64,000 nucleotides of DNA from Clavelina lepadiformis (Eukaryota > Chordata > Ascidiacea > Aplousobranchia > Clavelinidae): the NCBI RefSeq assembly GCF_947623445.1, contig NC_135247.1, positions 17,672,501 to 17,736,500 on the forward strand, written 5' to 3'. The notes beneath the pieces are model-generated. The model had not been told where the DNA came from and searched no databases. It saw nothing but the letters and a program-made list of their open reading frames with translations. Below are positions 2,280 through 47,595 of this stretch, piece by piece (the stretch's first letter is position 1; every line of letters begins with the position of its first letter). Made by a program: the position numbers and the translations under genes.

Positions 2280-4728
2280 TTACGAAACAACATAGGCCTA
2301 CTTTAATAATATTAGTCTGTAAAAAACTTCAAATTTTAATGAATGGAATATTGCAAAAACTGATAAAACCTTTTTGTGAAGGAACTGGATCACTAGACTA
2401 TAGATATGTAATGTACAACGAATGTGAATGTATTATGACTTGCAGTGGGTTTGGTACTTTTATGTTTGAAACAATAGAAGGTGGGCTACATATATTGCCT
2501 CGATGCAGATTATTGTCATTGTTAATTGCAGTATTCATCACCTATATTGTACAAGCGGTGAAAGGAATTTGAGGAAACAAAATTCTCACCTTTTGATATT
2601 GTTGAAGGACTTCAGGTTTTGAGGCTATAACTTTGGCAAAATGTCATAACGTCCGAATAAAAACGTGAAAACATGACAGTAATTGCAGATTGTCGATAAT
2701 TACAATACGTCGGTAAATATGCTTCTTGGAAGTAATTATACCATATGAACTTATTTCTTATCATAAACGCCAGTTAAGATTGTGCTATGAAAATTGTAGG
2801 GCAAAGATCCTTTTAACATGATGCTGAAATGCGAAGCAATTGAGTTATACAGTTGGACTTTGGTTGATAAATATGCTTTGGAAAAAGCGTTTATAGTAAT
2901 TATCACATTTACAACTACGATTTAGTCTACAGTACGAATGAACTGAATAAGTTATACAATATATGTTAGACTTTTTGTACTCAATTTTAATATTTACCAT
3001 ATGAATAGTCGAATTGAAATGAACACTTAATCAAAATTGTGTCATACGAAATGGAAGCGAGAATAGAAGTGATGACGTTTCAAGGGACTGAAAATGTAAA
3101 TTGCTGACATGCAATATTGAAACCGATCATTTTAAATTTCATTGATGCGCCAAATCAACAACCAGCGGAACCGGCAGAATTACTTCCTTATCACGTCGAA
3201 GGTTTTACCTACAGGCCTATTATCCTGACTTTGTTGAGAAATCTTATAACCACGAAACAATGGTTTTAGTCTAAAGAAAATTGCAGATTTTAAATATTTT
3301 AATAACAAAACCAATCAAATATCTGCCGAGTTATTTGCTGGATTACATCTGGAACTAAACTATCATACACAATGCAAACAGGCCTATGTAACGTTGATTC
3401 TATTCTCAGTATAGTTACATGTTGTTAAATTAGGGCTCTTTTCTGTTTCAAAAGATATTTTGGAAGTAACAGAAATCATGACAACTACTCAAAACGTTTT
3501 CCAAAAACATGACATTCAGCAGGATGACGGCTAATTATGTTTCAATAGAACGGTTATTAATTACACCACGAACCTGTTATTATCATGAACGTAAATCGAC
3601 TTTGTGATGTACTACGAAAAATACTGGGTTATAGGGTTCGCTTATATTCGGGCTAGCAGGGCAAAGACTCCTGGACTTCTTCCTAGAATCAAGCGTTGAG
3701 ATATTGCAGAGACGGATGAGCGCATCGCGATTATTATCTATTGGTATTCGCAGTATAGGAGCGTTGCATATAAAAATAGTCGTAATTTCAGGCAAAGTTC
3801 CAAGGAATTGAACGTGTGTGAGTTTTTCTCAACAAATTTCAAAAGGAACCTTCAATGGTTGAGGTTTAAGAAACGCCGCGAGTCATTTGAAAAAAAAACA
3901 GAATTTACGATGAAACGCTATTTTTTTACAGATATTACCAAGATCGTGTACAATTAAATTTTATTTTTGTTCTTGAAAGCGTAAAAGAAAACATAACAGT
4001 CAACTAAAGGCGGCAAAATACGGGGCTACACTGATAAGGTAAGAAAAGGTAAAAATGCGAGGGCAGTCGAAATTGGAACAGAAATTAAAGCAACAAATTA
4101 ACAGCGCTACAATTGCACCCTACCGTGACGTTATATGACGTAATATACACGTAACAAGTAAAAGTACCAAATGACGTCAACACGCAATGCCTTTTTCTAC
4201 AGAATGAAACATGAGAAAAGAAAAAGATTTTGTAAAACAAATGAATAAAGAAAAGTGGTTTGACACAATATTTGGCAAAAGGCAATCCAGCAACACTTCT
4301 ATAAACTATGCGCGCTACGACGTGAAATGGAAAGGTAAAACGCAGCTTCAAACACAAAATTGGCCAGGACTCTCAAGAGTTCGATGACGTCATAAAACTA
4401 CCGCTAAACAAAGCTTCTAGTTATTGGCAATTATTTTCGGCATGATTATGGCAGCTTCACTATTGTTGCGTCACAATACCCTTAAATGACGCTCGATGTC
4501 AGTATACAGCACAGCAGTACGTAAAAGAAAAAATCGACATCCCAACGAAAACAAACGTTAAAGCGAAGTTAACACTACGATAAAAACTTGTTTCATTAAA
4601 CAGAAAGCTGAAACATTGTTGCTTTAAAACGCTTCTTCTCCAACGCGGTATGACGTGCTTGCACAAGCAGCTGATTGGTCCAAAAATGGCGCAAAAATTT
4701 AAAAACAGATCCGAGTTCAAACGAGACT
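2280..4728. other. convergent intergenic region between the 7TM gene and crumbs
   Basis: It should hold the 3' UTR of the upstream (+) gene and that of the crumbs transcripts reading in from the right. TGACGTCA-type palindromes recur between 4120 and 4400. I see no exon here: the open frames are short, and none begins or ends at credible splice sites. Confidence 0.4.
2656..2661 (+). other. polyadenylation signal AATAAA
   Basis: A canonical AATAAA lies 377 bases after the stop codon of the single-exon membrane protein, on the same strand, in otherwise non-coding DNA. It is the first canonical signal I noticed downstream, so it is the likely 3' end. Confidence 0.45.
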
Positions 4729-4974
4729 TTAAATGAGTCTCTCGCATTTCGGAGGGGGCTTGATTTGAGTGAACATTTCTATCCCGGAATAGTCCCCGGC
4801 GGTCGGGGGTGGGGCCACAGACTCCTGTTTGCTCGGAGAGTATGTCCCGGATGTTGCCCTCCTCTCCATGGTAACGGCAACGAGGTAGCTGATGCAGGCG
4901 ACAAGCAAAAGGAAGACAACGACTCCTCCGACCGTGGAGCAGAGGAGGAGTAAAGAGAACTTGAGCTTCTTCAC
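4729..4974 (-). CDS. crb: crumbs alternative terminal exon B (canonical TM plus ERLI tail)
   Basis: The distal last exon has a strong acceptor (TTTTTTGTAG) and encodes 81 residues and TAA. A transmembrane helix (about residues 6-34 of the exon, [17 protein letters not shown] onward) is followed by [15 protein letters not shown] and, at the end, [10 protein letters not shown]. Basic residues, RAT, GTYSPS and the PPP before ERLI match the family consensus closely, so this is the conventional Crumbs tail. Relative to fly Crumbs it carries extra residues in the middle ([15 protein letters not shown]). It starts in phase 0, as exon A does, so splicing to one excludes the other. Confidence 0.92.
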   Translation of the reverse strand: MKKLKFSLLLLCSTVGGVVVFLLLVACISYLVAVTMERRATSGTYSPSKQESVAPPPTAGDYSGIEMFTQIKPPPKCERLI

Positions 4975-7900
4975 CTACAAAAAAGTGATCTTGAAATTAC
5001 TCCGGATCCGGTTTCTTCGGCCGGACTACACCAAGTCACAGACGACGCACGATGATTTGCAGTCAAGTTACTGAGATATTTTGGACAAGCAATGACTGGA
5101 ATCGCTAAACAACGTCATTTGAAACTGGCGACTTGCCATCTACAAATACATTTACAACAATACAATAAAAATATTTGCACAAGTAATTGCTTTCTAATTT
5201 ATGACCTTACAAAAACTGCCTAGACCTTAAGTCTGAAACACCGGTCACATATCATAGACGACAAGCTTGGCAAAGAGATAGAAGTCAATCGCTTTCAATG
5301 CCATACATCGCGAACACTGAGCACAAATCTTATGGAAACAAACGCACCGACATCATGCAATGTAACTAGGATTTCACACCAGAACCCATCATGCACATTT
5401 TTTCCTTCAGAGACTATATGTGGATGAGCTATGACGTAGTAATGCGCATTTTCTCTGCTGAGTTCAACAGCGTAGAAAATGAAATACAGCATGCAACTTT
5501 GAGAACGTCAATAAAATTGCTAACTATGGCCAGAAAACGAGTTTTTAAACGATAATTTCCACTTTTTAAACAGAAAGTATAAAGCATGCGTGCGGATTTG
5601 GTTGTTGCAGGTAGATCCCCTAATTAGAATCTACAGCACGTTGAAATACGACACCGAACATGCAAGAAACGAACCTATCATATCAATCTCTCCTGGGTCG
5701 TTTTGGGGGGCAACGGAAGAGTCTTAAGGGGCTGTCCCTGTTGGGTTTCAGTGATCTTGGGACTGTACGTGCCCTGCTGTGCCCGTGCCCCTCTGGCGTA
5801 ACAAAGAAAAGAAGCCAAGCCAGCGACCAGGACGAGAAATACAACGATCCCCAAAATAGGGCCGATGATTATCCAGGGATTTTTGTCACTACTTGGAGGC
5901 GGCTTCTGTTGTTGGCAAGAATATTAACCATAATTGGTCCAAAAATAACTTAATAGAAATATCTAGATTCTAGACGGAGTCCCTAACACGACAGAAGTCA
6001 CACTGGGCAATTCTCATTGTTATGTCTTACCGAGGATTGACAGCTGTCCCCACTGAACTCGCTCGTGCATCTACAAACGGCACGAATATCTAGAACATCT
6101 TCACTTTCATGACCGCTTGATGTCGTCACTTCCTCTGACGTCACCGTCTCCCATATCGACTCGCAGATGCCGCCATTCAGACAGGTCGTGTTGACGCATG
6201 GGTTATCATGACGACAGAGATGACCTGTATAGGCATTATGACGTCAACTAACTCGGAAGATTGTCAGTCGGCAAAATATTTCAAGTTTACAGCAAATTAA
6301 TTAATAATTATTAATTATAAATAAAGATAATTATAATTATCAGAGCTAACGACCAATTAATAACTTGTTACCGGTATGGGTCCAAGGGCACTCGCAAGAG
6401 AATAAGGGATTGAGATCATTGTCAAAGTCAAAAGAGCAGTTGCCATCGTTTGCGCAAAATGTGTCACTTCCGTTACGCAAGCATACGTCATAATGCTCGC
6501 AACGACGGCCAAGATAGCCTGTGATTGAAAATAAAGACAGCCGCAGATTCAAAAATCGGAGCAGATTTGATAAAATAGTTAAGCACAAATTAAAATAAAA
6601 GTTAACATGGACCCCAAGAATCAGCCAAGTTATAGGGACGGCGACTTTTCCGTATTTACCTTCTTTGCATGTGCACCGGAAGCCATTTATTGTGTCGTCA
6701 CAGTAACCATTATGATGACACGAGGTATTGGAGCAAGGTTCAATTTCTTTTTCACATTTGCGTCCGCCGTATCCGGTTGCGCATGCGCACTGCCAATCTA
6801 GCGTGGTCTACAGACGAAGAACAAATTATAGTTTTGACCGAAACATTGATGAAAATTTTGTCATTTTTGCACCAAAACGACCGGTCGTACATTACAGAAA
6901 AAAAACCTTACATGCATATTACAAGCTGCATAAAAAAATTGACAACTCTAGCAAATAGGTGAAAAAATCTTGATTATGATTGTCAGTGAGATACTTAAAG
7001 ACGAATCTATCGATACCTTGTTTGAGAAGCAAGATCCGTGATTGTGGCAAGTTGCATTCTCACAAAAGTCAATTTCATCTTCACACGTCACACCCTCGTA
7101 AGGAGAAAAGCACTCGCACTTGTAGAGTACCTGTCCATATATGGCATGGGTTAGTAAATGAGAAATTGATGGCAAACAAATTACGGTAAACTTTGGCTGG
7201 AAAAAAGGCAAGGATTTATCCTTCTCACCAGTAGGACAAATATAAATGAAATAGGAAATTTAAATGTGACGACATAAATGAATCGAAATTTACCTGTTTG
7301 TCGTTTTTAATCCTTGAAAATATAGGACAAAATTAAAACTAAATAATTTTAATAGCGAGATTATCTATGATCAAACAGACGAACCGTGTTGTTGCTTGTG
7401 ACGTTTGAGCATTTTCCTCCATTCATGCAAGGTGCGTCATCAGTGATGTCATCACCGCATGCGTGAGTGACGTCGATCTCGCAGAGTGGCCCGGTGAAGT
7501 TAGCCTCGTCACAGTCGCAGAAAAACAAACCAATCAGATTGACGCAAAGTCCCCCGTTCAAACATGGTTGAGGAACGCATTCGTTGATTTCAACATCGCA
7601 GCTGGGAAAAATTTTGTTTTTAGTATTTTAAATTGTTCGATGAAGCTTCAGTTATTTAGAATTTTAAACAATGTAAATAAAATCAATATTCTGTTATAAT
7701 GAAATTATATGATCGGTTCAAATTAGATGGCATAATCATTCCATGATTCGACTCGTGAAATGAAATATTGTGAACAATAAATTCACATGAAGCCCAAACT
7801 ATCACAAGCACTACAAAAAAAACAACTTGACTTGGCGAAAACAGCGAAATGCAAGACATCAAACTCACAATCTCCCCTCGAAGCCTGACTGGCATTGGCA

Positions 7901-32000: not shown

Positions 32001-35000
32001 TGGCGGAGTGTTTCGCGAAGTTGTATGTCTGAAATACCGATAAGAAAATGCCTTCGCGGGCAATGAACGATAAATAAAGCGAAAAAGAAATTCGTGGTTT
32101 TGTTACTGTACGTTGCAGCCTGTGGGAAACAACACGAAGGTGATGTGAAATATTGCCGACGCTAAAATTAGGAACTATCAAGAACATAAACAAAACAAAC
32201 GACGACGGCAGTGAACGAGCTCAGGTCACCTATATGGCCCGCCTATGGCGTCACAGAAGTCAAATGGAAAGAAAACACCACAGGGCCATAGGCCTATATG
32301 GGGCCACCAATGAACGCAGGAATAGTGCAATAATAAACAACAAAAATAACGAAAAACGTATGATTCCAGCGGTTATAATAACGTTCGAAAGATTTGTAAA
32401 TGAACATAAGATATATTGATAAAACAAAACTGTTTAATTACTTTGTATTTTATTTAAACAAAGCAGGAATCGTGACTCGGTTTAGGGTTAGAGTCAAGAC
32501 GTATATATCAACACTTGTTTTGCAATTGTACAACTCAAGCTAGTATTTCGAATAAGATAAAACAGATCATCAACAAACCGCATCGTCAAAGAAAACATTA
32601 AAATTGATATAAATCTAAAAGTTGTAGTTACCCAGGGCTGATATAACATAGGACAAAATGTTTTTAAACGTGTACATGATCGCAGTTATTCGTTCGATCA
32701 TGGAACTTACAAAACCATTCATCTTGTCGGGCATGAAGGCAACAGTGTTAGAAAATACTGCTATTAAGTTGCACATGCACTCCTGCACCCGTGTCCATAC
32801 CAGCATTTGCGGAAGTTATTTCTTTTAATTGGCCTCGTTTTGACAAAGACGGACAAATTACGGCGCCGCAGTGGCTGGGCCAGTGGGCTGTGCATTCAAT
32901 AAACAATCTAAAAGGGTCGCAGGAGTTGGACTACTTCGATTTAATGACATGTTTCCCTGGGCATGTTTGAAAACCCCTTAAGTTCTAACACGTATCTTGT
33001 CCGGTATTAGGAGTCGTATTTTAGCATGTCGCTCACACTTTTGACACATCTCCGTTACCACACGTTGTCTGTGTACTGCCCTGGCACTCCGCGTATTCTC
33101 CCTGCTTTGCGTTCTTAGAGCATTCGTTCGACGATTTTACGCCATTTTCGCGGGGTTTTCCGCTATCTGGTCGCCGCCTTTTACCATTTCTCGACCGATG
33201 TAGACGATAACCGTTGGTGGAATTGGCATCTGCGGCGAAGCCCGCTTCCTCTTTAGCTCCAAGGGATATCTCCACGTCGCGATGACCGATCCGTCGCCGC
33301 TGTCTCAATCGTCGCTTTCTGACAATCCAGATAAAGAAGACGATCATAGCGATTGCCGCGAGCGACATGGCGACGATTACAGCGACAACCGCGGTGACGT
33401 CAAAAGGTTCTTCGACTTTATTGTTTTGGTCCTTAGTTAGATGGACGTAGTCCGAGTTAGGGTCGAGATCATCTTCCACATCAAAATCGTCATCATTAGG
33501 GGGATTGTTGCGCCCGGTTGGAAAGTGGAACACATTGTCCCGAACGGTGCCTGAAACAGCGATGTTTAAATCCGATCCCTGGGCTGAGTTGTAGTCAATA
33601 ACCAATGTCAATGACGTTGTGAACGGTTCTTCTCCTGATGACGTAACGCTCTCATCACTTGGAGTAAAGTTGTACCGATGAAAGTTGAGTCCGTTTTGGT
33701 CGATGTATTGCAACTTAGGCAAACTCGGTTGCGTTGTAACTGGAGGATTTTCCGTAGTCCAATTATCCGGACTGGAAGCAAAGGAATTTGTTCGTTTTCT
33801 TAAACCTTCGGTTGCTGAAACAGTGCTACTTTGTTTCAATTCGTATCCTGCATCAGTGGCGGATTTTTCGGTAATGACGAAATCAGTTGTCGTTACAATA
33901 ATGTTTGGGGTGGTAGGGGTTGCGTCCGTTATCGTAGGGGGTTCAGTAACAGGGACTGGTACCGGGGCCCCAACGTTGTTTATTAAATCCCAGCGAGAGA
34001 ATTCCTTCAGGTATCGGCCCCTTCGGTATTCGGGGTAAGCGCAAAGCACACTACTTTCACTGAACCCGTGCTGGTCTAACCACATCATCATCGGTAGAGC
34101 AGTGATGTCACAAACCCAAGGGTTACCATCTAAGATCAGAGTTTTGAGCAGGCGAAGCCTTCCGATGTTTGGAATTTTTTTCAGTTTATTTTTTTCCAGC
34201 ACCAACGTATAGAGGTTCTTTTTGTTGAACGCCCGCTTGGCAATTTGCTTTATACGGCACTCCTCAAGCCAAAGATACTTTAGCGATGTCATGCTTCTCA
34301 GAGAGCTTCGACTGACAATTTCAATGGGATTTCTACCAAGAAAGAGGGTGGTTAACTTGGGCAAAATCTTCAACGCTCTTGTTGGTATACTGGTGAGGCT
34401 GTTCGTTTTCAAGTTCAAGGTGTTCAGTTTGGCAAGGTTTTGAAAAGCGTATGGGGAAATGTAAGAGATGTTGTTTTGTTGCAGAATCAAAATCTCCAAT
34501 GAAATCATATCGGAAAAGGCATAATCAGGCAACCTTTCGATCTGGTTCAAATTAAGACTAAGCTCAACTACTGAGGCCAAATGATTGAAGCTGTCGCGGC
34601 CGATTCTTTGGATATGATTGTTGCTCAGGTCAATAGTTACGAGTGAATCGAGTCCAAGGAATGTGTTGTTCCAAATCTCTGGCAACCTATTGCCAATAAT
34701 CCGAAGATGCTGCAAAAGAATGAAGATATGTTAAAAAGGTTTGACGACGATTTTAGTTTTCTACCTTGTGGTAATTTGGGCAAAAAGGAAATGTAGGTGA
34801 TAACTGGGTTGCAAAGTATTTCAAAAAGGTCTCTTACCTCTAGGTTTCTTTGGGCCTGAAATGTTCCTGAAGCAACATTAACCAAGTCATTGAAATTTAT
34901 CATTAGGTCCGCAACCCCCGTGAAATTCTTCATATTCTCGTAGTTAAGCTCAGGAAAACGACAATCTTGGATTGCAATTGCGAACGCATCCCTTGGTATA

Positions 35001-38000
35001 TTGTTGGGAAACTCAGACAAATCGTAGCAGTCGACGTATTTCTGACACTCCACGTTTTCGTCTGCATTTGGGACCAAGTTATTTTCTAGAGGACAATCTA
35101 TCTTCACCTGGCATTCAGCAAGTACCGGTAGAATCGCTTTGCCATTAATGTTCCCATCTTCATCGTATATCATTGTGAAATTCGAATCGTCGTAGTAGTC
35201 AGGGTAATCGTTGTTGTAGGTGATTCCCCCAAATTGGTTGTTGGAGTTGTAGACAAACGGTTGGCTTGCAAACGCAAGTGCAGGTAAATGTAACATAAGA
35301 AGCAGACGCCACATGTTTAAGTTATTTGTGTTGCTTCAATTAGAAGCTGACAACAAGATGTAGATTTACAGTAAATATGCTAAGCAGGTCAACAGGTGTA
35401 AATAGACCAAGTGCATTTAAAGCTGTTCTAACTTCCCTGTAAGCAAAGCTCATAGACTACACTTGACTAGAAACACATAATGGCATTAACCAACAATATC
35501 ATGCAGTAATTGCTGTTCTCTGTGCAACCTGCAACCTTCCTGTTAGATGTAGGTCGGAGCACGCAGCTTATGATCCCAAATGCTCGTGTTACTCTTAAGA
35601 ATGCAAATCACATGAAAAAATGTGCTCTGTCTTCCTACATGTACGAGCAGTGTAACTTCGAAAAGAAAGCACAGGCGGCCACATTTCCTGAAGAAAACTG
35701 AAAGCACTTGTGTGGGAAATACGAGACTACGGAAATTCAAGTACCTGGCAACTTCCTGCCAATGGCCTAATCTAACCATGAATCAACCTTTCTGCATTGT
35801 TGCCACCGGACAAATTTGCACGAGCTTACGCTATAAGGTAATGTATGAGACTTGTCCAGATTCAACGGTACAGTTTACATTTCACAGCTACGGTCGGCCG
35901 TAGTCAATCATGGTGTCATATTTTGTTTTAATTGAAGGCATGTTGTCAAATTGTTGTGATTGTAAGGCTTCGAAAACACTCCTTTATTGCGTTCAAGTTT
36001 TTTTAAATGAAAGTACCCGACTCTTCCCATAAGCATTGGCATAAACAACGTAATATTATTTGAGGATATGAAACCCATATATTTTTGTCCATTGTAACAT
36101 GGATACAATGCTTTATATGTATTTATCATCAGTTGATGCAATGATGGTTGGTGCAATGTATAAGCAGAATGCTACAGAATGTGCTATACACTGTAAACAT
36201 TTTATTACAAAAGCAAGTACTGTATACAGATGTAGAAACCGCCATACACTGCTATACATTTAATCAACATTTGAAGTCTAACGGGTCCAGATCTATAAGC
36301 GGTCGTCCCTTAAGGTTCTTAGGAAATTGACAATCAATATTGCTCGACAACAGGAATGGGGAGGTTTTGATGTATTTTTGCAAAGATTTCATTTGACAAT
36401 TGCATTTCCAAGGATTTTTTCCAAAATCAACCTTATAGAGAGGTAAAACAAATTAAAAACCAAAAGTGAAAGCTTCCAATGCAAATTAATCGTCAGCCAA
36501 AAAAACTTAATATAAAATTAATAGAAATACTATTTATAGAAATGAATGGTATCGTGGAATATAGTTATAACGTATTATTTTAACCGGAATGCAAGCAATA
36601 ATATGCCTATCTTTACAATACATGCTATAATTTTAGTTCAACATGCCAATCACCAAAGCATACCTTACGTAGCGTCCGAGGCAACAAAGGCAAATTTTTC
36701 AAAGCGTTCCCTGTCAAATTGATCGTCCTGAGGCTGCTCAGACTACCAAATAAGTGCCCGTCGACCAGGGACAAGTTATTATTAGCTAAATTCAGATTGG
36801 CCAAGACTGCGCTTTTTCCAATTGATAGCAACTCTTCAATATGGTTGTGACTGAGGTCAAGGTCTTGGCACCGACGTAAACCTGATATGAAATACGTCAA
36901 TCATCACCATTATCAACCACACTTAACAGAATGCTTAAATGCATAATTATGGTTTATATTAAGTCTGGGTGTTGCTGTGATTATGCAAAGGCTTTAACCC
37001 TACATAAAAGCGTGTGTAACAGCTAAACCGAAAGGCGAAAGCGGCTGCTCATTGGGGTTTATTTTGCGTAAAATGATCATGAAAAAGGCAACAGACTTCA
37101 ATCGATTATCATGAAAATGTATCGCAAAAAAATGTGGACAAAAATAACATTTATTACATCACAAGAAATCACCTGCAATCAAATTACGCGAAACCGAAGT
37201 AATCTCGTTATAAGATAAGACCAGACGTTGAAGCGAAGTGCAGTTGATGAACGGTTCTGGACTTAACTCGCTCAAACTAAAAAGACGATGTAATTAGGGT
37301 ATTTTAATGTAATGATGTATTGTAATATGGTGTGATGATAATGATGATTATGGTATATGTCTATATGATGATGATGTCTATATGTCTACATATATGATAT
37401 ACATCATCATACCATAATCTGGTAATTAAGTTAATACAAAACAAGGCAAAAGTTGATGTGATTACGGCGATTGTTTACACAAAGACAATGATATTTAGTA
37501 CAGGTTAAAATTAAATTAAGTTGATTGCTTAATTATTTTATCAATCAATCAAATACAGTATTACCAAAATTACCTGTTATTTGTCAGGTAAAGCCACCTC
37601 AAACGATTTAAACCAAAGAACGACCGATTGTTTAATTCGGTTAGATCATTGTGACGTAGGTAGAGGGCAAATATCGACACTAGCGGGCGGAAGAGTTGGC
37701 CAGGTAAATAATTCAAACGATTGTTGTCGAGAAACAAATAGGAAAGACTTTCCAAATCTAACATGAACATTGAACAATAAATAGTCATAGACATACACGT
37801 GGTCATATTCATCTAATGACAGCCAGTAGTTGATTTTGTAACAGTTAATTTCATAAACCTTAAACAAAACTATATTGACCACACAATACGCTTATTGTCA
37901 ACAAAACCAACCTTGGAATGCGTTCTTATCAATGTCTATGATGTCGTTGAAATTCAAGTAAAGATAAATAAGTTTTTTTAATCCTTTGAATACTCTCGAT

Positions 38001-41000
38001 TCAACCCGGCTCATTTTATTGTATTGGAGATGGATCGAGATCAGGTCTGGCATGTAAATAAACGAGTTGCTGTACAGGGTTCGAATCCTGGTAACGACAA
38101 AGAGAATTATACCATTGGCTTATTAGTTATTACAGTAAATTATGTTGATTTGAATTTAACAAAACGTATACGTAGATAATAACGAACTTAGATGAAGTTA
38201 TTAAATTGACAAATTCATAATGACAAAGTATCAACATACTCATTTCTCCTCAGATCAAGTAGAACAGTGTTTCTAGGAAACCGATGTGGAACCTTCGAAT
38301 ATCCCTGCCTATTGCAATTCACGTGACGTAATTGGGCAGAACATACACACCGGAAGTCACAGGAAAAGCCCAAGGTGTCTGACGTTGTTAGGTCATAGTT
38401 GTCGAATTGTGACGTATGTTTGAAACCAGTGGAGATTGAAACAGGAGATGAAATTGTAGGAACAGATGCGTCGGTTGTCGAACACTTTAAATTTTCGATG
38501 CTCAAACTTTTCAAAGGTTTTCCGCTATGGTTTGGAGGTCCTGCACACGTGACGTCATAATCAGTGGACTCGATCCATCGGCGCATATCCTGTGAGTAAC
38601 ATATCGAGAGTAACTCAACACAAGTCATTTACAAGAGCAGAAAATGATGCAACGAATCCACAAACACACACAGCTTTATCGTGCAGGCTGAAACACGGAT
38701 CACGATGACGTGACGTGACGTGACGTGACGATCACGATGACGTTTTAAAACACTCAAAAAGCAGAAATAATTAAATATCAAGCAGAAATATTTCTAAAAA
38801 TCATTCAAAATTCGTACCTGAATATCGCAGTCGCAATGCCAGGGATTTCCCTCAAGGTGAACTTGTTCAAGGTCAACGAGTTTACTGAGGTCGGGCAAAT
38901 TTCGCAATCTATTGTTCCTTAAATCTAGTGACGTAAGCCTCGACAAAGGTGAAAGGTCAATTGATTCGAGTTTGTTTGAACTGACGTTTAAAACCTGAAG
39001 CCGCCGCATACCTGCAAGAAAAAAATATTTTAGGTGATGGTGACGAAGATCATCATTTTGACGTTTCGTCATAATGGAAATGTTTTTGCAGTGCAATATA
39101 ATGAAAAGTAAACTTAACATAATTGCTTCGCGAATTTCTCACATACAGTATCACATCAAGAATAGGACATGAGTAAGCGGTTTCAATATTTCTACAATGT
39201 TAATTGCTTGATAAATAGTGACCTGCAAACACGTCGGCTGGTAACCTCTCCAGCAGGTTGTGAGCAAGACTAAGCGATGACAGCAGAAACATTGAAGTGG
39301 CGGCGGGAAACTTTACAAGTTTATTGTTATCTAGCGCTAGCTTGCGGATGTTCTTCAGGCTTTCGAAGGCCATGGGTGATATTAGCTACGATGAAAATAT
39401 AACACTTTATGAATATTCTGATGACTGTGTACAAAAAATATTAGGTATGCGCAGTAAACCACACAAAATGGGTAAAGAGTGTACTTCCAGCTCGTTGTTT
39501 TCGAGGAATAAATTCTTCAATTTTCGCAAACCGAGTAGATCGTCCTTTTTAATTTCTTTCAAGTTATTTTTTCTCAAGGAGAGTACATTGAGATTAACCG
39601 AAGCAAAATCTCGAAAAACTCCGCTTTCTATGGAGGAGATTTCATTCTGTGAAAGAAAGGCGCTTTAGAACAAATATGTACGGGAGCCAAAGCAAATCAC
39701 AGTTTCAATTACAGTTGATGCAAGTCTACTTGCCTCGTGTAGGTAGACAATCTTCGTGAATTTCGAAATTCCTCGAAAAATTCCGGCTTTCAATTCAGTC
39801 AATTTGTTTGATTTCAGATTAAGTTGTTTTAGTCGTCGCAAGCCATGAAATGCTCCGGGCTCTATCTTTGTGATTCTGTTCCCGTTAGCAAAGAAATTCA
39901 CGAGATGGGCAAGACTGAGCGAATCGTTCGGAATCACCGAAATCCTATTCCCGCGGAGATCGAGTTCGTGGGCCGAGGATGGAAGATTAGGCGGGATTTG
40001 TGACAAATTACCGTCGCATACAACCCTACGTTTGTGCTCATTGCATTTGCAAGAATCGGGACAAGTGAAGACCAGCTTAACGCTCAGCAAGCATGTAAAC
40101 AGGATTGAGCTTAATCGCATTGTCTCGAATTCATCTGCTGTATAATGTAGGCTAACTCGAAATAATATTGCAATATATTATTTTGCAAATGATATGCTTA
40201 AATCAACTGCTTCTAATGCAATACGGCTTAAACTCCTGCAAATTTAGCTGCCTGACATTTACTCACTGTAATACCAATAATACCTTTTTTACATCCAAAT
40301 GCAGATTTATTTTCAGCTCAATGTCAGCTCTGTTAACATATAGTACCCTGTTAGCACATATGTTAGCGGTTAAGTAGAATGTTAACTTAATTGTTTCATC
40401 GGGAAAACCGCCTTACTTGACGAAATTAGCTTATTCAGCTTTCTATATAGTAAATACAAAAGCCAGCTACCTTAAGGCGTGAGAATCAATCCACAAAATT
40501 TTCTGGAAAAGAAATAGCAGCTGAAAGCGGGTAGGTCTTAGCTGACAATAATTGGGGCGGCTTTTGAAATTCACATCAAAAGACGCAAAATGAACTTTAT
40601 TGGGTAAAGAAATAATAAAAGACGCCCCGCATAGAAACATTGCATCTTTGATTTGCTTGCGTTTTAAAAGTGCCAGTTGTAAACCTAATTTCGGTGGATT
40701 TACAACCTTACTTGCGTTCATTTTACACTGTGTTGGTATGACCATTAAGTGTTGACAATTTAGGATGACGCAACAAAACACAAATTAGTCAACCATTAAA
40801 CCACTGACCTGGATTTTTGTTCCCAAAACCTCGTCCGCTTTAACTATCACTTCTACTGGACATGGTGAGCCAGCCATAACACCTGGGCAAGTGATAGAGA
40901 TTAGTTGGTCGTAGTGTGCCAAGTTAACTGATCAATGAACCACTGACATACGTAGATTTGATGAAGGCAAATAGAACGATGCGATTTTCAGTTCCATTTT

Positions 41001-47313: not shown

Positions 47314-47595
47314 TAGTGATTCCCAAGCTGTGAGCCGCGAATCTTTTTGGAATTTTGGAAAAGAACTGTATAAATATTTAAAATAAGGTATGCAGACAAG
47401 CATTAGCGACTTAAAAGCGCTCTAACTGCTTCAATAGCTGATAAATAAGCACATGTCCATCCAATAAGCACATCCATCACATTAACACGTGAAAATAAAC
47501 TTTTTTAAAGCAACTTTTCTTCTCTTGTAAGTGTGCCGCGAACGTTTTATAATTTTTCTAGTGTGCCACAAGCTGAAAAAGTTTGAGAACCAATG
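47314..47595. mobile_element. second, older hAT-type MITE, 282 bp
   Basis: The termini TAGTGATTCCCAA (47314-47326) and the complement of the right end (CATTGGTTCTCAA) match at 9 of 13 positions. The flanks carry an identical 8-bp repeat GCGTAACC (47306-47313, 47596-47603). GTGAGCCGCGAA near the left and GTGTGCCGCGAA/GTGTGCCACAAG near the right are subterminal repeats. No coding capacity. The diverged ends suggest greater age than the 45.6-kb element. Confidence 0.75.

Follow-up and report, generated by a model that had tools for sequence, protein, structure and literature searches.

Two alternative last exons, each encoding a membrane helix and an ERLI tail, in the crumbs gene of the ascidian Clavelina lepadiformis

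The crumbs locus of Clavelina

The DNA analysed here, referred to as the window, is a stretch of 64,000 nucleotides (nt) from chromosome 8 of the ascidian Clavelina lepadiformis (G000:C8:17672501-17736500). Its principal gene for the present purpose is a crumbs gene on the minus strand, which ends in two tandem exons, termed A and B, each encoding a membrane helix and a short tail that terminates in ERLI. The published assembly, kaClaLepa1.1, comprises 102 scaffolds and gives chromosome 8 as 19.51 Mb (PMC10884593); the genome searched by us comprised 209 Mb in 95 contigs.

The NCBI protein crumbs-like isoform X2 (P0001, 2143 amino acids (aa)) was mapped onto the window, and 2142 of its 2143 residues were placed exactly, in 42 coding pieces of which the last is exon A. 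Pfam searches with P0001 matched EGF over 25 stretches (4.8e-133) and Laminin_G_2 over three (3.5e-40), which is the EGF and laminin G ectodomain characteristic of the Crumbs (CRB) family. NCBIfam held no model matching P0001 or a CRB3-like frame found elsewhere in the genome (described below).

Two last exons behind one donor

The last exon common to both ends of the gene encodes the last EGF repeat. Its 3' end reads ...CAATCCTCG, followed by gtaagacat, which is a phase-0 donor after position 6031. Two phase-0 acceptors follow, the first reading ...ccaacaacag before AAGCCG (exon A, start at 5905) and the second ...cttttttgtag before GTGAAG (exon B, start at 4974). An earlier note on this DNA had stated that each acceptor leads into a hydrophobic helix, a GTYSP motif and a stop right after ERLI, and this was confirmed by direct reading. 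Each exon encodes one hydrophobic helix, with a maximum 21-residue Kyte-Doolittle mean of 2.73 for A and 2.83 for B. GTYSP is present in both, and in both ERLI lies immediately 5' of the stop. When the minus strand of the window was scanned for [DE][RK][LI][ILV]-stop, three matches were obtained, namely A, B and an unrelated one at 47519. The two features that mark the end of a Crumbs family protein, a single membrane helix before a short tail and a C-terminal ERLI as PDZ ligand, were therefore found in A and B alike.

Splice sites were scored with a matrix trained on the crumbs gene itself. On this scale the acceptor of A lies towards the lower end of the 32 in the exon model (range 1.3-6.4), and that of B lies mid-range. 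The simple exon model, likewise trained on crumbs, took B as the last exon as easily as A (score 469 vs 463). A second in-frame donor is located 27 nt downstream of 6031 (6030-6004); it scored 1.5 vs 3.4 and would add VRHNNENCP before either tail. The last rounds of the exon model favoured this donor, 6004, over donor 6031.

With two acceptors behind one shared donor, and with each frame ending in a stop, A and B are alternative last exons. The earlier note had described them as tandem, mutually exclusive last exons. They are indeed two tandem last exons; mutually exclusive internal exons, however, were rejected, since A and B are related and of the same phase, yet each carries a stop codon. 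The shared exon had been numbered 40, which holds when a 30-nt micro-exon is left out of the count and becomes 41 when it is included. The micro-exon (13478-13449, minus strand) stands between EGF repeats in isoform X2, the frame is open without it, and it is probably an optional cassette.

The 1177-nt stretch that holds both exons was found once in the genome. With tail B as the query, the whole genome returned three matches at E<=10, which were B itself, A and one CRB3-like gene. No Pfam model matched either tail. The features of this part of the gene are collected in Table 1.

Table 1. Features at the 3' end of the Clavelina crumbs gene (window positions, in order of transcription).
Feature	Position	Strand	Description
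crumbs gene, coding extent	24695-4729	minus	NCBI isoform X2 in 42 coding pieces (24695-5681, with the stop extending to 5678), and in addition alternative last exon B
Last shared exon (last EGF repeat)	6224-6031	minus	first complete codon at 6222; phase-0 donor after 6031 (score 3.4)
Acceptor of exon A	5925-5906	minus	weak polypyrimidine tract; score 1.6
Alternative last exon A	5905-5678	minus	75 aa and stop; linker, membrane helix, tail; terminal exon of NCBI isoform X2; groups with Ciona tail
Four TGCATG motifs (RBFOX type)	first bases 5664, 5495, 5395, 5359 (5664-5354)	minus	between A and B; candidate regulatory element
CATAAA	5203-5198	minus	possible weak poly(A) signal of exon A
Acceptor of exon B	4994-4975	minus	T-rich tract; score 3.5
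Alternative last exon B	4974-4729	minus	81 aa and stop; membrane helix, canonical FERM-binding motif with TxGTY, ERLI; groups with Phallusia tail

FERM and aPKC motifs of the two tails

The FERM-binding motif of Crumbs is RxxxGxYxPS, and sponge Crumbs has been accepted with two to five of its residues; moesin binding is regulated by two aPKC sites (TxGTYx), and ERLI is the ligand of Stardust/MPP5 (PALS1) and of PAR6 (PMC5968619). FERM binding and PDZ binding to the Crumbs tail exclude each other (PMC5380682). Exon B carries the complete RxxxGxYxPS together with TxGTY, and it is through this exon that the gene has the FERM motif of the family. Exon A reads RxxxGxYxPK, which retains four of the five defining residues, and is without the first threonine of TxGTY. 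The earlier note had held that both exons keep the PDZ ligand and the FERM-binding GTY. That is so for ERLI and for the three letters GTY, but the full RxxxGxYxPS is present in B only, the motif of A ending in K. The A-type tail of Ciona, introduced below, reads RxxxGxYxPQ with GVY and likewise has no TxGTY. This pattern of motifs suggests that aPKC may switch tail B, whereas tail A may be regulated less.

Each tail has a counterpart in another ascidian

Protein searches, from which the best 1 of 1, 120 of 279 and 120 of 150 matches were taken, provided 198 proteins, 142 of them ending in ERLI. The crumbs homolog 1 isoform X3 of Ciona intestinalis ends in an A-type tail, and the Crumbs protein of Phallusia mammillata in a B-type tail (...PPP.CERLI), in each case attached to a complete Crumbs ectodomain. 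An initial protein search with tail B as the query had returned 1 of 54 candidates and missed Phallusia despite 15 consecutive shared residues, so that absence from a search of this kind means little.

In pairwise alignment the A tails of Clavelina and Ciona scored 141 (42% identity, 31/74) and the B tails of Clavelina and Phallusia 176 (48%, 39/81), compared with 61 (34%, 24/71) for A and B within Clavelina. For all 40 pairs of tails compared, the score was reached in none of 300 shuffles, which shows homology of the tails and not orthology. A tree of tails was calculated over 74 columns from 43 hand-picked proteins of the 142, together with exon B and the CRB3-like frame, and was rerun without four long rows; the branches are long, and the bootstrap of the rerun, of 200 trees, had not settled. 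Support in this tree was 100/99 for the A pair and 99/94 for the B pair. Since A and B are each nearer to a counterpart in another ascidian than to the neighbouring exon, these comparisons date the duplication to before the last ancestor shared by Clavelina, Ciona and Phallusia, and on the same evidence the A/B pair is at least as old as that ancestor. Absence or decay of one exon in close relatives, which the earlier note had named as a finding that would overturn its claim, is spoken against by the A counterpart in Ciona and the B counterpart in Phallusia.

Against the PDB sequences, the sole match of tail B at E<=10 was the Drosophila Crumbs tail (4wsi/4yl8, E=0.017), and a phmmer search with tail A returned only cytochrome b helices, which are unrelated.

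The CRB3-like frame lies on the minus strand at G000:C1:7407568-7407747 and encodes a Ser/Thr-rich stub, one helix, RAFEGKYSPS and ERLI. Among the tails compared, its best score was to a vertebrate CRB1 tail of type 1, as defined below (141, 50% identity), followed by Ptychodera (133). Judged from these scores, the CRB3-like gene may predate vertebrates.

Probable use of the two exons in Clavelina

A and B are very probably a pair of alternative terminal exons of the ascidian crumbs gene, which provide one ectodomain with two anchors and tails. The shared donor would be spliced to A, the message being ended before B, or A would be skipped and B used. Two type I membrane proteins would result, with the same ectodomain and with different anchors and tails, and Clavelina would use both exons as alternatives within one transcription unit. 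Both tails would be expected to bind PALS1 or PAR6 through ERLI, and the main difference between them would be the juxtamembrane switch. Because B carries the canonical RxxxGxYxPS with TxGTY, its FERM (moesin) binding could be switched by aPKC; because A has RxxxGxYxP[KQ] and lacks the first threonine, its FERM site may be weaker, or may not respond to such regulation. Tail choice would then couple one ectodomain to the cell cortex in two modes. That exon B is used in Clavelina we infer from the Phallusia protein and from the conservation of the exon.

Several observations weigh against this reading. In Clavelina, no transcript with the 6031/4974 junction was seen, and the one member read of the five in the NCBI cluster ends in A. 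Ciona and Phallusia, as cluster representatives, showed one tail type each. The tail of the hemichordate Ptychodera shows 47% identity with Clavelina A and 50% with Phallusia B, in shorter alignments and with lower scores (108 and 99). Neither AATAAA nor ATTAAA was found between A and B; after exon B, AATGAA is present at 4597 and AATAAA at 3965. Donors scoring above 1 were located downstream of exon A at 5380, 5348, 5242 and 5226. A further possibility is a message spliced from beyond the stop of A on to B, in which B would be untranslated and tail A would remain the end of the protein.

The ending of the sole readable annotated protein, together with the position of A nearer to the shared donor, is also what would be seen if Clavelina used exon A only and B were a relic or a rarely used exon. 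This is unlikely, however, as B is intact, has the stronger of the two acceptors (3.5 vs 1.6), keeps the canonical motifs better than A and is 48% identical to the tail of the deposited Phallusia Crumbs. Over so long a time the frame of a relic should have decayed. As exon B is preceded by a splice acceptor, it could be joined to any upstream donor, and short-ectodomain CRB3-like proteins do exist, one of them in the Clavelina genome (C1:7407568). Against the idea that B belongs to a separate short transcript of this kind, with its own promoter in the A-B interval, stand the B-type tail on a full Crumbs ectodomain in Phallusia and the vertebrate CRB2 isoforms that bear both tail types on the same ectodomain, and we regard it as very improbable. 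Although haplotypic duplications occur in such assemblies, nine having been removed from kaClaLepa1.1 (PMC10884593), an artefact in which A and B stem from two alleles or from a misjoin was rejected, because the stretch containing them was found once in the genome, the two are only 34% identical in protein and each has its counterpart in another species.

Motifs between the two exons

RBFOX proteins bind TGCATG. This hexamer occurs four times between A and B, compared with a mean of 0.43 in shuffled sequence, and none of 1000 shuffles had as many; among 2532 overlapping windows of the same size, eight reached four. It was both the most frequent and the most over-represented of the hexamers present at least three times in the interval, but the cluster had been noticed by eye before counting, and by a hand estimate a correction over all hexamers would remove the significance. 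The Pfam model Fox-1_C matched neither the Clavelina genome nor any of 14 control genomes. An RRM query gave 14 matches in the Clavelina genome, including the neighbouring pieces C2:4386857 (88%) and C2:4387278 (65%), and by this similarity an RBFOX relative is likely to be encoded there. The cluster may be a control element of the choice between A and B, and is offered as a lead only.

Paired tails in vertebrate Crumbs proteins

The 142 ERLI-ending proteins, among the matches listed, were sorted by motif into 45 of type 1 (RQ[ST]EG and similar), 34 of type 2 (E[ML]W, mostly RATQG) and 63 others. As type 2 was defined by E[ML]W, the aromatic residue in 34/34 of its tails is circular.

Two isoforms of CRB2 from Heliangelus exortis, X1 and X4 (P0081 and P0084), are identical at 1311 of 1311 aligned ectodomain residues and part immediately behind ..GERCDVN, one continuing with a type 1 and the other with a type 2 membrane-plus-tail module. 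The same arrangement was found for crb2.S of Xenopus laevis, where isoforms X3 and X2 (P0116 and P0089) are identical at all 1332 aligned residues, with a 39-column gap, and part after ..GVRCEK into two different ERLI tails, again of type 1 and type 2. For both pairs, a contig of equal size is listed for the two members. The switch point lies two to three residues after the last EGF cysteine, and three residues after it in Clavelina. A gene model of Melospiza melodia (P0144) passes directly from a type 1 module that lacks VPPEERLI to the type 2 module, so that type 1 precedes type 2, as A precedes B in Clavelina. If real, P0144 would be a protein with two membrane helices. The vertebrate pairs resemble that of Clavelina in having the same ectodomain, two membrane-plus-ERLI tails and a switch just after the last EGF repeat, and differ from it in that vertebrate type 1 (RQ[ST]EG) does not group with ascidian A. 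Going by these database isoforms, the choice of tail is not peculiar to Clavelina, the same architecture being present in vertebrate CRB2.

A tree of ectodomains was calculated by a quick method from 32 of the 142 proteins. The sampled CRB1 proteins formed one clade and the sampled CRB2 proteins another (Shimodaira-Hasegawa-like approximate likelihood ratio test (SH-aLRT) 99 each). Neither clade was uniform in tail type, each containing type 1 and type 2. Salamander CRB1 was represented by both, P0112 having a type 2 and P0113 a type 1 tail. When the type 1 and type 2 tails of CRB2 were held together as a single clade, the approximately unbiased (AU) test gave p 0.11, and p 0.04 without the four long rows. 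The vertebrate tail pair, as far as these trees indicate, probably predates the split of CRB1 and CRB2.

Common or independent origin of the chordate pairs

In the tail tree, ascidian B grouped with vertebrate type 2 at 85/100, and at 77/100 without the four long rows. In both ascidian B tails E[MV] is followed by an aromatic residue, which is F in Clavelina and W in Phallusia; the corresponding letters in type 2 are EMW. Such a residue was found in 0 of 45 type 1 tails, and three crustacean matches to the aromatic motif were discounted for their other position. Exon order and switch point agree between Clavelina and vertebrates, and a vertebrate pair confined to CRB2 was disfavoured by the AU test, with CRB1 too showing both types. 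These observations point to a common origin, in which the choice of two membrane-plus-ERLI tails would be ancestral to chordate Crumbs and would predate both the tunicate/vertebrate split and the CRB1/CRB2 duplication. The choice would have been kept in the CRB2 of frog and bird and sorted in mammals to one tail per gene; the distal tail would be aPKC-switchable for FERM binding, and the proximal tail would escape the switch at least in ascidians. We put this history forward tentatively, as having slightly less than an even chance of being correct. Mammalian CRB2 has a type 1 tail in the one mammal seen (P0153), and the tail of mammalian CRB1 we take to be type 2.

The ascidian and vertebrate pairs could, on the other hand, be independent exon duplications, an account that is distinctly possible if somewhat doubtful. 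A and B held together, as a tunicate-only pair, were not rejected (AU test p 0.18; p 0.16 without the four long rows). A joined vertebrate type 1 in 0% of the 200 bootstrap trees and sat among non-chordate tails, and when A was held together with vertebrate type 1 this was not rejected either (p 0.31). Clavelina B scored 89 and 96 with type 2 tails, 107 with Ptychodera and 90 with a type 1 CRB1 tail, and pairwise scores alone do not place it with vertebrate type 2. To be set against separate duplications are the grouping of B with type 2, the shared aromatic residue, and the common exon order and switch point described above.

Relation to known Crumbs variants

In mammalian CRB1, as in Clavelina, the membrane and intracellular domains vary with the choice between alternative 3' ends of one Crumbs gene, giving CRB1-A and CRB1-B. 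CRB1-B has a different membrane and intracellular domain without the conserved motifs, and its own first exon (Ray et al. 2020, PMC7335077); its 3' segment, c.4005+1 to +126, continues from exon 11 (PMC12859255). The Clavelina tails, by contrast, are separate exons that both keep ERLI and RxxxGxYxP. Equating the pair with CRB1-B was rejected, as CRB1-B loses ERLI and neither A nor B has a 3' end of the CRB1-B type, free of FERM and PDZ motifs.

Mammalian CRB3A and CRB3B are alike in that alternative splicing of the last exon alters the Crumbs C-terminus, CLPI replacing ERLI in CRB3B (PMC7456964, PMC5380682). In Clavelina the exchange concerns the complete membrane-plus-tail module, and ERLI is present in both versions; with ERLI lost in CRB3B, this comparison was rejected as an identity too. 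For Drosophila, mutually exclusive exons are predicted in the crumbs gene. The isoforms Crb_A, B, C and D vary in their EGF repeats, and one membrane domain and one 37-aa tail are common to all four (PMC5312091); the exon of Crb_C is an EGF exon, and the Clavelina pair was not equated with it. Human CRB2 likewise has several predicted transcripts, but differs in that no second ERLI tail is among the variants in the available part of the table (PMC5380682).

Among the papers listed in topical searches of the open-access literature, none was found to describe a Crumbs gene with two alternative ERLI tails, and the view of the earlier note that a duplicated membrane-plus-tail module keeping ERLI is undescribed has thus stood. 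No paper on type 1 and type 2 isoforms of vertebrate CRB2 was found among those listed either, and the parallel in vertebrate CRB2 (and probably CRB1) is apparently unreported.

Neighbouring genes

Upstream of crumbs, also on the minus strand, a leucine-rich-repeat membrane protein is encoded at 33037-39385, and fragments resembling the end of an acyl-CoA synthetase were seen at about 27-31 kb; both names were given by eye from the translations. On the plus strand, convergent with crumbs, a single open frame of 333 aa lies at 1278-2279. It is apparently multi-pass by eye and had no Pfam match at 0.01.

Implications

The finding is larger than first stated, comprising a conserved alternative-last-exon pair of ascidians and a parallel in vertebrates. 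Crumbs tails are regarded as a single conserved module, some 37 residues long, in which the FERM and PDZ motifs determine apical identity. The crumbs gene of Clavelina has two such modules for one ectodomain; each of them is conserved in a further ascidian, and a parallel exists in vertebrate CRB2. With ectodomain and ERLI constant, the role of the juxtamembrane switch is testable within one gene. A second membrane isoform can escape antibodies or knock-ins that are directed at a single C-terminus of Crumbs. If the ascidian and vertebrate pairs share an origin, the difference between the tails of mammalian CRB1 and CRB2 may reflect descent from two alternative exons.

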